DNA of 64,000 bases from Meiothermus sp. Lineage in GTDB: Bacteria > Deinococcota > Deinococci > Deinococcales > Thermaceae. The notes under the pieces are model-generated. The model ran no database searches. It saw only the letters and a list, made by a program, of their open reading frames with translations, and was not told the DNA's origin. The position numbers were made by a program, and so were the translations under genes. This document shows, in pieces, positions 53,219-56,624 of this stretch. The stretch covers positions 2,770,501 through 2,834,500 of the forward strand of contig NZ_BPIM01000001.1 of NCBI RefSeq assembly GCF_026004115.1, given 5' to 3'. The first letter of the stretch is position 1, and each line of letters begins with the position of its first letter.

Positions 53219-55450
53219 GTGCGTAGATTGCTCCAGATTGTGCGGGTTGTGTTAATGGCCGGTTTTTTGGGGGCAGCGGGAGCTGCAGGGTATGTGGCCT
53301 GGCTGCTGCTGCGCGATCTGCCCAGCCTCGAGACCCTCGACGACCTGCGGTTTACCGCAACCTCGACCTTTTATACCCGCGATGGCATTCCCATTGCCGA
53401 CCTGGCCTCGGTGGAGGATGGACGGGCCATTGCCCGGCAACTGGTGCGTTTGAGCGAGGTTTCGCCTGCGGCGGCCGTCGCGGTGGTGGTCTCGGAGGAT
53501 CAGCGCTTTTTCAAGCACTACGGCATCGACCTCATCCGCCTGTTTGGGGGCCTGTACTATTCCTTGCGCGGCGACCTGCAGGGGGGCTCGACCATTACCA
53601 CCCAGGTAGTCAAAAATACTTTGCTGCGCGACCTGGCTTTTGAACGCCGAAGCATTAGCGGCCTCGAGCGCAAACTCAAGGAATTTCCTCTGGCCATCCA
53701 GATTGAGCGGCGCTACTCCAAAGAGGAAATCCTGGAGATGTACCTCAATGTGGTGCCCTGGGGGGGGAACGCTCAGGGCATTTGGGCAGCCGCTCAAGCC
53801 TACTTTGGCAAGGAACCCTCCGAGCTCAACCTGGCCGAAGGGGCCTATCTGGCCATATTGTTACCCGCGCCCAACCCCCGCTACCTGGACTACCCCTCCA
53901 CCCGGCGTCGCATGAAGTTTTTGCTTGAAAATATGGTGACAGAAGGTTGGGTCAGCCAGGCCGACGCCGACGCGGCCTGGCGCTACAAGCTGGTGCCCAA
54001 GGGTTGGGAAGCAGCCTACGACGACAGTGGCAACCTTAAGAGCGCCAAACTCATAGACCCCAGTGTGCGCATTGTGCCGGAGCGCAATGTGCGCTTGGCG
54101 CCCTATTTCGTATATGAAGTACAGCGCTACCTGAAGGAAAAGATTGGCTCTGACAAGCTGCGTGATCAGGGGGGGCTGCGCATCATCACCACGCTCGACC
54201 TGAAGATGCAGACCGCCGCCGAAAAGGCCGTAGTGGGCCGCCGCCTGCCCGACCAGGCCCAGTTGGCGATGGTGGGCCTCGAGCCCAACTCGGGCGAGGT
54301 GCTGGCCATGGTGGGGGCCCGTCCTGGTACGGAAGGTGAGTTCAACCGGGCGAGCCAGGCCTGGCGAAGTCCTGGATCGGCTATCAAGCCCTTTACCTAC
54401 GGCGTGGCCCTGGAAGCAGGCTGGACCCAGGCTACTACCGTGCTAGATGCCCCCATAGAATACCCTACCCCGCGGGGGGTGTGGCGACCCAAGAACTTTG
54501 ATGGGAAGTTCTTGAATCGTCCGGTCAGCCTCCGCTATGCCCTGGATCGCTCCCTAAACCTACCGGCCATTCGCACCGCCGAGGCTATTGGGGTGCAGCG
54601 CTTGGGGGATAAGCTGCGGGCTGCCGGGTTCCGCCTGACCGGCAATATGGCCGTACTGGCCAACTCAATTGGCGGGGGTGCTGACATAACCCCTATTGGA
54701 CTGGCAGCAGCCTACGCCAGCTTTGTTAACGGGGGCTATTGGGTCGAGCCACGCCTGGTCTTGAGGGTTGAAGATAACAATGGCCGAGTAATCTATGAGC
54801 CCGAAACCAAAAAGGTACTGCTCTGGACACCGCAAGTAGCCTACCAGATTTGGGACATGCTCAAGGGCTACGTCTACGATGTCCCGCCGGGTTTCCGCAG
54901 TAGTTTGGCCGCTGAAGCCCGCATTCCAGGGCGCATTGTGGGCGGCAAGACCGGAACCAGTGACAATGCGATAGACCTGTGGTTTGCTGGCGCTACCCGG
55001 GGACTCGTGGCCACACTCTGGGTGGGCCGCGATGACCACAAGCCCCAGCGCATGGGAGGTATCGAGCCGAGCAGCTCAATGGTCAACCCCCCCATCTGGC
55101 GCGATTTTGTGGAGCAGGCCTTGCGGGGCCGCCCTACCGGCGACTTTCCTCAGCCCTCGGGGCTGGTTCTGGCCAGTTTCGATCTGCTGACCGGCAACGA
55201 CAGCTCGAGCGGAGTGGCTGCGCTCTTCCCAGCCCGCCAGGTACAACGTACCCAGGCGATTGTGCGGGACGCCCCGCCCCAGCCTACCTATATCTCGCGT
55301 CCTGGCCCGGCGGTTGCCAGTACCAATGCCTATCAAACCATCGCAGTGGACCGGGGCACCAACTGCCTGGCCTCTCCACAGACCCCTACCGAACGGGTGG
55401 TATGGCTGCAGGTACCGGATAATCGTATCAACGACTATCGGTGCAACTAG
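53219..55450 (+). CDS. Class A penicillin-binding protein
   Basis: Bifunctional murein synthase of 743 residues. An N-terminal membrane helix (about 8-30) precedes the glycosyltransferase GT51 domain with EDQRFFKHYGID and GGSTITTQ. The transpeptidase domain follows, with SPGSAIKPFTYG (active-site serine) and GGKTGTSDN. The C-terminal 100 residues are Pro- and Ser-rich, with two late cysteines (NCLASPQ and the end DYRCN). The GTG start lies seven bases after a -10 box TACACT (53206-53211). Confidence 0.94.
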   Translation: MRRLLQIVRVVLMAGFLGAAGAAGYVAWLLLRDLPSLETLDDLRFTATSTFYTRDGIPIADLASVEDGRAIARQLVRLSEVSPAAAVAVVVSEDQRFFKHYGIDLIRLFGGLYYSLRGDLQGGSTITTQVVKNTLLRDLAFERRSISGLERKLKEFPLAIQIERRYSKEEILEMYLNVVPWGGNAQGIWAAAQAYFGKEPSELNLAEGAYLAILLPAPNPRYLDYPSTRRRMKFLLENMVTEGWVSQADADAAWRYKLVPKGWEAAYDDSGNLKSAKLIDPSVRIVPERNVRLAPYFVYEVQRYLKEKIGSDKLRDQGGLRIITTLDLKMQTAAEKAVVGRRLPDQAQLAMVGLEPNSGEVLAMVGARPGTEGEFNRASQAWRSPGSAIKPFTYGVALEAGWTQATTVLDAPIEYPTPRGVWRPKNFDGKFLNRPVSLRYALDRSLNLPAIRTAEAIGVQRLGDKLRAAGFRLTGNMAVLANSIGGGADITPIGLAAAYASFVNGGYWVEPRLVLRVEDNNGRVIYEPETKKVLLWTPQVAYQIWDMLKGYVYDVPPGFRSSLAAEARIPGRIVGGKTGTSDNAIDLWFAGATRGLVATLWVGRDDHKPQRMGGIEPSSSMVNPPIWRDFVEQALRGRPTGDFPQPSGLVLASFDLLTGNDSSSGVAALFPARQVQRTQAIVRDAPPQPTYISRPGPAVASTNAYQTIAVDRGTNCLASPQTPTERVVWLQVPDNRINDYRCN

Positions 55451-55486: not shown

Positions 55487-55515
55487 TTGACTTTTGCTGC
55501 AGTTGCATTTATTGT
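55487..55515 (+). promoter_or_regulatory. Promoter of the asd leader
   Basis: TTGACT (55487-55492), 17-base spacer, TATTGT (55510-55515). Transcription would begin at about 55521-55524, at or next to the leader-peptide ATG. Confidence 0.7.
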
Positions 55516-55523
55516 TTTTTCAG

Positions 55524-55553
55524 ATGGTTTGGTATACCACCACCACTACCTAG
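55524..55553 (+). CDS. Putative threonine leader peptide of asd
   Basis: A nine-residue frame, M-V-W-Y-T-T-T-T-T, then TAG. Five consecutive threonine codons (ACC ACC ACC ACT ACC, 55536-55550) come directly before a 12-bp hairpin and a terminator. The ATG is eight bases after the -10 box, so it would be translated leaderless, as is common in this lineage. The run of codons for an end product of the aspartate pathway, before a gene of that pathway, is the signature of a ribosome-stalling leader. Confidence 0.75.
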   Translation: MVWYTTTTT

Positions 55554-55578
55554 GCGACAGCTCGTTCGAGTTGTCGCC
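55553..55578 (+). promoter_or_regulatory. Attenuator hairpin 1:2 of the asd leader
   Basis: GGCGACAGCTCG (55553-55564), loop TT, CGAGTTGTCGCC (55567-55578): 12 pairs with one G-U. It starts at the last base of the leader-peptide stop codon, so a ribosome stalled on the threonine codons would cover its left arm. Confidence 0.8.
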
Positions 55579-55579
55579 C

Positions 55580-55606
55580 AAGCCTGCCTACCCTGGCGGG
55601 TTTTTT
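55580..55606 (+). terminator. asd: Attenuator terminator just before asd
   Basis: AAGCCTGCC (55580-55588), loop TACCCT, GGCGGG (55595-55600), six T. It lies only 20 bases before the asd ATG and after the asd promoter, so it must be read through for asd to be expressed. The right arm of hairpin 1:2 (TCGCC, 55574-55578) can instead pair with GGCGG (55595-55599). Confidence 0.85.
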
Positions 55607-55625
55607 GTTTCTCAGAGGAGATGCC

Positions 55626-56624
55626 ATGAGAATCGGAATTGTTGGAGCTACCGGAGCGGTTGGCAAAGAACTACTGAGTGTGCTTGAAAAGCGCAACTTT
55701 CCCGTCTCTGAGCTGCGATTATATGCCTCAGCTCGTTCGGCGGGCAAAAGCCTGAAGTTTCGTGGTAGGGAAGTGAACATCGAGGCACTACCCGAGACCC
55801 CCTTGCCGGTGGATGTGGTGCTGGCGAGTGCGGGGGGTGCTATCTCCAAGCAGTACGCTCCCATCTGGGCCAAACAATCGGTGGTGATTGACAACTCATC
55901 GGCTTTCCGCTACGACCCTGAGGTGCCGCTAATTGTACCGGAGATAAACGCCCATGCCATACAGGGTCACAAAAACATCATTGCCAACCCGAACTGCACC
56001 ACAGCCATACTGGTAATGGCCCTTTATCCCCTTCACAAGGCTTTTGGGGCCAAGCGGGTGATTGTTAGCACCTACCAGAGCTCATCGGGCGCAGGTGCGA
56101 GCGGAATGGAGGAGCTGCTGCACGGAACCCGGCAGTACCTGGCGGGACAGCCCGTTGAACACAAGACTTTCGCTTACCCTTTGCCCTTTAACGTGATTCC
56201 ACACATTGATGCTTTTCAAGAAAACGGCTACACCAAAGAGGAGATGAAGGTGCTGTGGGAAACTCAAAAAATTATGGAGGACACGCAGATTAAGGTTTCC
56301 TGTACAGCAGTTCGGGTTCCGACCCTGCGGGTACATTCCGAAGCTGTGACGGTGGAGTTTGAGCGCCCGGTGAGCCCAGAAGCAGCCCGGGAAGTGCTCA
56401 AAGATGCTCCTGGCGTAGACCTGGTAGACGACCCAGCCAACAAACGCTACCCTCTGCCGCTCACCGCAACAGGCAAGTTCAACGTGGAGGTCGGACGTAT
56501 CCGTAAAAGCCTGGTATTCGACAACGGGCTGGACTTTTTTGTAGCAGGGGATCAGCTGCTCAAGGGTGCGGCCTTGAACGCGGTGCAGATTGCAGAGCTT
56601 TTGCAAAAGCCGGTAGCCGGATAA
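55626..56624 (+). CDS. asd: Aspartate-semialdehyde dehydrogenase
   Basis: Reduces aspartyl phosphate to aspartate semialdehyde, the branch point to lysine, methionine and threonine. It has 332 residues. The NADP motif is [17 protein letters not shown], the catalytic cysteine is in [16 protein letters not shown], and the conserved [15 protein letters not shown] ends the substrate domain. The ATG at 55626 follows AGAGGAG. The leader carries a putative threonine attenuator. No other aspartate-pathway genes are in the window. Confidence 0.96.

Follow-up and report, generated by a model that had tools for sequence, protein, structure and literature searches.

Organization of the asd Locus

The window analyzed here, a 64-kb stretch of a Meiothermus genome, carries on its forward strand the gene asd (55626–56624), which begins with ATG at 55626 and encodes an aspartate-semialdehyde dehydrogenase (Pfam PF01118/PF02774). 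As the earlier note on this DNA had proposed, the downstream gene is asd; its product scores above the cut-offs of TIGR01296 and NF011456, and the gene is 98% identical to asd of a related genome, G002. A penicillin-binding-protein-like gene ends upstream at 55450. The promoter between the two genes (55487–55515, forward strand) consists of a −35 box TTGACT (55487–55492) and a −10 box TATTGT (55510–55515) separated by a 17-nt spacer. At 55524, 8 nt past the −10 box, an ATG opens a leaderless leader-peptide ORF, MVWYTTTTT* (55524–55553, forward strand; the asterisk denotes the stop codon, here TAG), in which five Thr codons, ACC ACC ACC ACT ACC (55536–55550, forward strand), form a putative sensor. 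Codons 2–5 of this ORF, GTT TGG TAT ACC, coincide with a probable operator of a GntR/FCD regulator, GTTTGGTATACC (55527–55538, no strand assigned). Two structures follow on the forward strand. Hairpin 1 (55553–55578) pairs 55553–55563 with 55568–55578 across a 4-nt loop, and its first paired base is the G that ends the TAG stop codon. The intrinsic terminator (55580–55606) combines a 9-bp stem (55580–55588/55595–55603) with six T residues at 55601–55606. A Shine-Dalgarno-like sequence of asd, AGAGGAGA, lies at 55614–55621 on the same strand. The promoter, the leader ORF with its Thr codons and the terminator ahead of the asd start codon are thus located as first described; the stop-codon hairpin is present as well, although it counts 11 bp rather than the 12 bp claimed. 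Elsewhere in the window, a glycine riboswitch aptamer at 2071–2157 is the single Rfam RF00504 match.

Five Thr codons followed by a stop codon occur once in the window, against an expectation of 0.01, and the leader fold has a z-score of −6.6, with 0 of 200 shuffles as good. The terminator scan by itself remains within chance (1 found, 2.1 expected); the leader terminator is accepted as real because of its conservation, as a covariance model places the element before asd in 27 genomes. A search of Rfam gave no match to the leader, and RF00506 appeared neither at the gathering threshold nor up to E = 5. A literature search with little coverage of subscription journals returned no paper on an asd leader in Meiothermus or Thermus.

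Conservation of the Leader

For comparison, asd-upstream DNA was taken from 50 genomes, and the covariance model of the leader was run over 111 genomes of the class. In every Meiothermus-group genome (18/18), asd is preceded by a promoter, a leaderless mini-ORF, a hairpin and a terminator, and the same four-part leader is found in the sister genera g2 and g4 (two of two genomes each). It also occurs in three genomes of the distant family f5 and, in more divergent form, in two genomes of family f2; in the upstream DNA compared, it is absent from Thermus (g5), g3, f3 and f4. Strong matches to the model among the 111 genomes are confined to the leader-bearing lineages. Weak matches in G076, G041, G062, G001, G023 and on contig C54 of G048 were judged on reading to be ordinary terminators. 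Among the loci examined, lysC and hom have no such leader; thrC is located downstream of hom. Other leaders in these genomes, discussed below, were reached gene by gene. In G040 (L045), a short second copy of the beginning of asd, ATGAAATTAGCTATTGTCGGAGCAAGTACCTGA, lies between terminator and gene, reflecting either a duplication or an assembly error.

Across the Meiothermus leaders, a promoter of the form TTGACT/TTGACA-17-TANNNT stands at the equivalent position. The −10 box lies 6–9 nt ahead of the start codon in the leaders, and the promoter is unclear in the most divergent leader only, which upholds the leaderless start of the peptide suggested earlier. This arrangement also bears on whether the hairpins simply terminate transcription of the penicillin-binding-protein-like gene, with a fortuitous mini-ORF beside them. 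A terminator would be useful there, as that gene ends at 55450, yet the promoter intervenes between gene and hairpins, and the flanking sequence upstream differs between lineages while promoter, leader, hairpins and asd remain joined as a unit; we regard this explanation as extremely improbable.

The leader peptides that begin with MVWY range from MVWYTTT* to MVWYTTTTT*. In g2, the peptide is MSLARTTTT*, with a GTG start, and the three f5 genomes encode MNVWYTTTTTI*, MQFWNTTTTTK* and MSQRFNNTTTI*. The two f2 peptides are VKFDSSTSNTTIF (G049) and MKLASHICNIMITP (G045). Ile, Met and Thr, three products of the asd pathway, abound in the G045 leader; its segment ICNIMITP contains one Thr only, which counts against the Thr-attenuator reading of these leaders.

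Selection on the Threonine Codons and Hairpin 1

Among the 20 MVWY leaders, codons 1–5 are identical at every base, and the first three Thr codons are invariantly Thr (20/20). Codons 6 and 7 always specify Thr and vary between ACC and ACT at the third base only, whereas codon 8 is free (Thr, Ala, Pro, Ser, Gly, Arg or stop); this silent variation beside a free codon argues for selection on Thr. Leaders that lack the operator keep the Thr run as well (MSLARTTTT* in g2, a peptide ending in NNTTTI* in G048), so that the presence of Thr cannot be put down to the operator. The leaders thus conserve three to five Thr codons, in keeping with the end-product codons of leader-peptide attenuators, and, as in such attenuators, an intrinsic terminator lies between leader ORF and structural gene. 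The earlier note had made its idea depend on Thr codons and paired arms in the leaders of relatives; both are kept, and the idea survived this check.

For hairpin 1, 98.7% of the cells of the comparison are paired, and compensatory changes on both sides occur in 7 of its 11 pairs. When both hairpins are considered jointly, 0 of 500 shuffles attain the observed covariation score. In every leader with a Thr run, 12–19 nt separate the first Thr codon from hairpin 1. With the size of the ribosome footprint taken as general knowledge, this spacing means that hairpin 1 would stay intact while a ribosome paused at the first Thr codon; once at the stop codon, the ribosome would cover roughly the whole left arm (10–14 nt).

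A Probable GntR/FCD Operator Within the Leader ORF

The invariance of VWY was at one point read as conservation of the peptide, a reading dropped once the 12-mer turned up in other promoters. In the source genome, GTTTGGTATACC occurs exactly four times, in the asd leader and in the regions upstream of ilvB, leuC and pntA; at ilvB and leuC, it sits between the −35 and −10 boxes. The sequence GGTATACCA also precedes lys20, metH and a gene for a GntR/FCD regulator. Over 61 genomes, the 12-mer is present in 1–6 copies per Meiothermus genome and in none of Thermus, with 0–1 for the reversed control. Of the 25 genomes that contain the 12-mer, 22 have the regulator, vs. 3 of the 36 that lack it, an association inflated by shared descent. 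In G004 and G015, the operator is present and the regulator was not found in the fragmented assemblies, which are 92% and 85% complete. Within 60 nt before the regulator gene, an exact TGGTATACCA occurs in 19 of 28 loci, those of the distant f5 included, and a copy with one mismatch in six more.

The regulator combines GntR and FCD domains. For GntR regulators of the FadR subfamily, the operator consensus is NyGTM-N0-1-KACNy (PMC4494728); the main text of that paper names no Deinococcota, Meiothermus or branched-chain regulon. Both TGGTATACCA and GTTTGGTATACC agree with the FadR-type palindrome (GTM-N0-1-KAC, T/A flanks). The likeness to FadR-subfamily systems thus extends from the site, TGGTATACCA fitting GTM-N0-KAC, to the GntR and FCD domains of the regulator; the difference is that the site here lies inside a leader ORF. 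On these sequence grounds, the regulator is probably autoregulated and probably binds GTTTGGTATACC in codons 2–5 of the asd leader. Since the operator lies at about +4 to +15 of asd, the regulator would act there as a repressor or roadblock.

Several individual loci are of note. G000 carries two copies of the regulator gene (C1:1682495–1683139 and C2:14536–15180, the latter on a small contig) that are 99% identical, each with TGGTATACCA ~30 nt upstream; by eye, the C1 copy lies directly downstream of a cystathionine gamma-synthase/methionine gamma-lyase-like gene. In G022, the aspartokinase promoter region (L236, within ~45 nt before the match start) contains TTTGGTGTACCAAAC, one base off the operator; the asd leader of G022 has no operator site.

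The operator could also be the sole regulator of asd, with Thr codons and hairpins giving merely constant readthrough or a stable small RNA of ~85 nt. Its invariance in the 20 MVWY leaders, silent positions included, would be expected on such an account, and so would terminator folding that is indifferent to ribosome position (see below). However, this explanation leaves aside the Thr run in leaders without the operator, the third-base variation of codons 6–7 that keeps Thr, and a paralogous ilvA leader with Ile-Ile-Ile, and we consider it improbable.

Search for a Competing Hairpin

In the classical mechanism put forward in the earlier note, a ribosome stalled in the Thr run would mask the left arm of hairpin 1, and 55574–55578 would pair with 55595–55599, preventing termination. 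The five-pair register that this pairing needs is available in 90% of cells of the comparison and far less in slid registers, its GCC/GGC core is nearly invariant, and in 20 of 26 leaders the pairing is slightly stronger than in shuffles of the same leader. These points were set against a masking test, in which the RNA under the ribosome was removed at successive positions and the terminator probability computed at 37 and 60°C. The probability stayed at ~1 at nearly every ribosome position in nearly all of the 26 asd leaders; the exceptions, at 37°C and at some positions, were G011 (down to 0.55) and G014 (down to 0.19). Furthermore, regions 2 and 4, the proposed antiterminator, complement each other no better when both come from the same species than when species are permuted (P = 0.95). 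Its central pair is broken in 9 of 21 leaders, with compensation no more frequent than chance and no covariation. Region 3 lies closer to region 4 and pairs with it more strongly, at an average of −12.4 vs. −6.6 kcal/mol for the proposed antiterminator. The alternative pairings 1:3, 2:3 and 1:4 were tried, and none scored higher with matched species than with permuted ones. The pairing once proposed is therefore not borne out, and a classical attenuator at asd seems quite improbable.

Leaders of other biosynthetic genes served as controls. In the trpE leaders of G000, G022 and G043, masking gave a low terminator value before the stop codon and a value of 1 with the ribosome at the stop codon. 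These trpE leaders are leaderless too (e.g., MVRTAQVKGWWWP*), and three others switch partly or not at all. The set (L051–L056), from Thermaceae and relatives, has two to three Trp codons per leader, and three of the six behave as textbook attenuators would. The terminator likewise persists in most lys20 and ilvB leaders under the equilibrium masking test, which was for this reason judged too strict and replaced by a sequestration test: is the left arm of the terminator (region 3) sequestered before region 4 exists? In trpE, lys20, ilvB and leuA leaders, the left arm is mostly sequestered while the ribosome is at early positions, with values that usually fall as it moves forward. The asd leaders mostly score <0.2 for sequestration, reaching up to 0.66 in a few cases. 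Among these controls, the ilvB leaders (L082–L085) are leaderless and rich in Leu, Ile and Val, and the lys20 leaders (L097, L116, L117, L119) contain Lys-Lys; a terminator follows in both groups.

Folding predictions for the asd leaders thus show no antiterminator that excludes the terminator and is set by ribosome position, and the leader is accordingly classed as one that works like a leader-peptide attenuator rather than as a classical member. To judge from these models, it resembles an attenuator that lacks a classical antiterminator: the sensor (Thr codons) and the output (terminator) are well supported, and the link between them would be of another kind.

A Paralogous Leader and a Proposed Mechanism

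In G049, the covariance model found a paralogous leader, VKIQSSTPQIIIF* (L222:1461–1556), before ilvA, the gene for threonine ammonia-lyase. It contains Ile-Ile-Ile, a 12-bp hairpin abutting the stop codon and then a terminator; no antiterminator was found in it. This architecture is shared by the G049 asd leader, VKFDSSTSNTTIF*, with the sensor codons exchanged as the pathway predicts. This exchange is the strongest argument that the codons would act as the sensor and the hairpin design as a reusable device. As to the pathway itself, lysine appears to be made from homocitrate; lys20, the homocitrate synthase gene, is present with its own leader, and asd would consequently serve Thr, Met and Ile.

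Taken together, the asd leader is probably a Thr-reading transcription attenuator overlapped by a repressor operator. As supported by the comparison, RNA polymerase would start no more than a few bases away from the ATG at 55524, and a ribosome would load on the 5′ end and read MVWYTTTTT, with stop-codon hairpin, terminator and asd following in succession. With ample charged tRNA-Thr, the ribosome would reach the stop codon and depart, and transcription would end near 55606; with scarce charged tRNA-Thr, it would wait in the Thr run, and asd would be transcribed. As no pairing is a good competitor of the terminator, we infer that hairpin 1 carries the signal. Folded hairpin 1 would then stand between a ribosome at the first Thr codons and the polymerase, perhaps leaving the terminator without space to fold or function. 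Crowding of this kind, argued from geometry, is conceivable but rather unlikely to be what blocks the terminator, and stalling without an antiterminator might have little effect on asd. More broadly, we regard as possible, though less likely than not, an antiterminator-free attenuator, in which the stop-codon hairpin would convert ribosome position into terminator function, probably via ribosome-polymerase spacing, a design reused for Ile at ilvA and, at asd, one whose codons double as an operator. The GntR/FCD regulator would add repression of initiation or early elongation at asd, and at ilvB, leuC, pntA and its own gene. Of the mechanism first sketched for this locus, the Thr-codon leader, leaderless start, terminator and conservation have stood; the antiterminator pairing has not, and the probable operator in codons 2–5 had been missed.

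Relation to Known Systems and Implications

The nearest counterpart is the leader-peptide attenuator of the lysine gene lys20 of Thermus thermophilus, reportedly described by Tsubouchi et al. in 2005. It resembles the asd leader in belonging to the same phylum, in a very short leaderless ORF whose codons are regulatory (MLALEKKLGRRGVG* in one Thermus genome) and in a terminator before a biosynthetic gene. The amino acid and the gene differ, and lys20 leaders mostly have an upstream partner able to sequester the left arm of the terminator, whereas such a partner is practically absent from asd leaders at the positions that matter. Enterobacterial thrL (Rfam Thr_leader, RF00506) likewise places Thr codons in a peptide and a terminator before Thr genes; however, it controls thrABC rather than asd, and RF00506 is not matched here. 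Enterobacterial Thr leaders have a Shine-Dalgarno site and an antiterminator pairing. Leaderless poly-cysteine uORFs of mycobacteria, which Canestrari et al. (cited in PMC13236596) are said to have reported in 2020, are similar in being leaderless short ORFs in which a stretch of a single amino acid senses its supply, although phylum and gene differ. To our knowledge, these uORFs use no intrinsic terminator.

Textbook attenuation is a contest of two RNA hairpins, and the folding models indicate that the arrangement of the asd-leader hairpins most likely differs from it. Sensor codons and terminator have been kept over a long evolutionary span, and the competing hairpin is not seen, whereas trpE leaders of the same genomes have one. 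The asd leader would offer a natural system of <90 nt in which to test the role of direct ribosome-polymerase spacing in termination. From its sites, the regulator appears to define a Meiothermus amino-acid regulon, of which no description was found in the literature searched. If both layers are real, a repressor site that overlaps the codons of a sensor peptide would constitute an unusually compact double control, contained in <90 bases.
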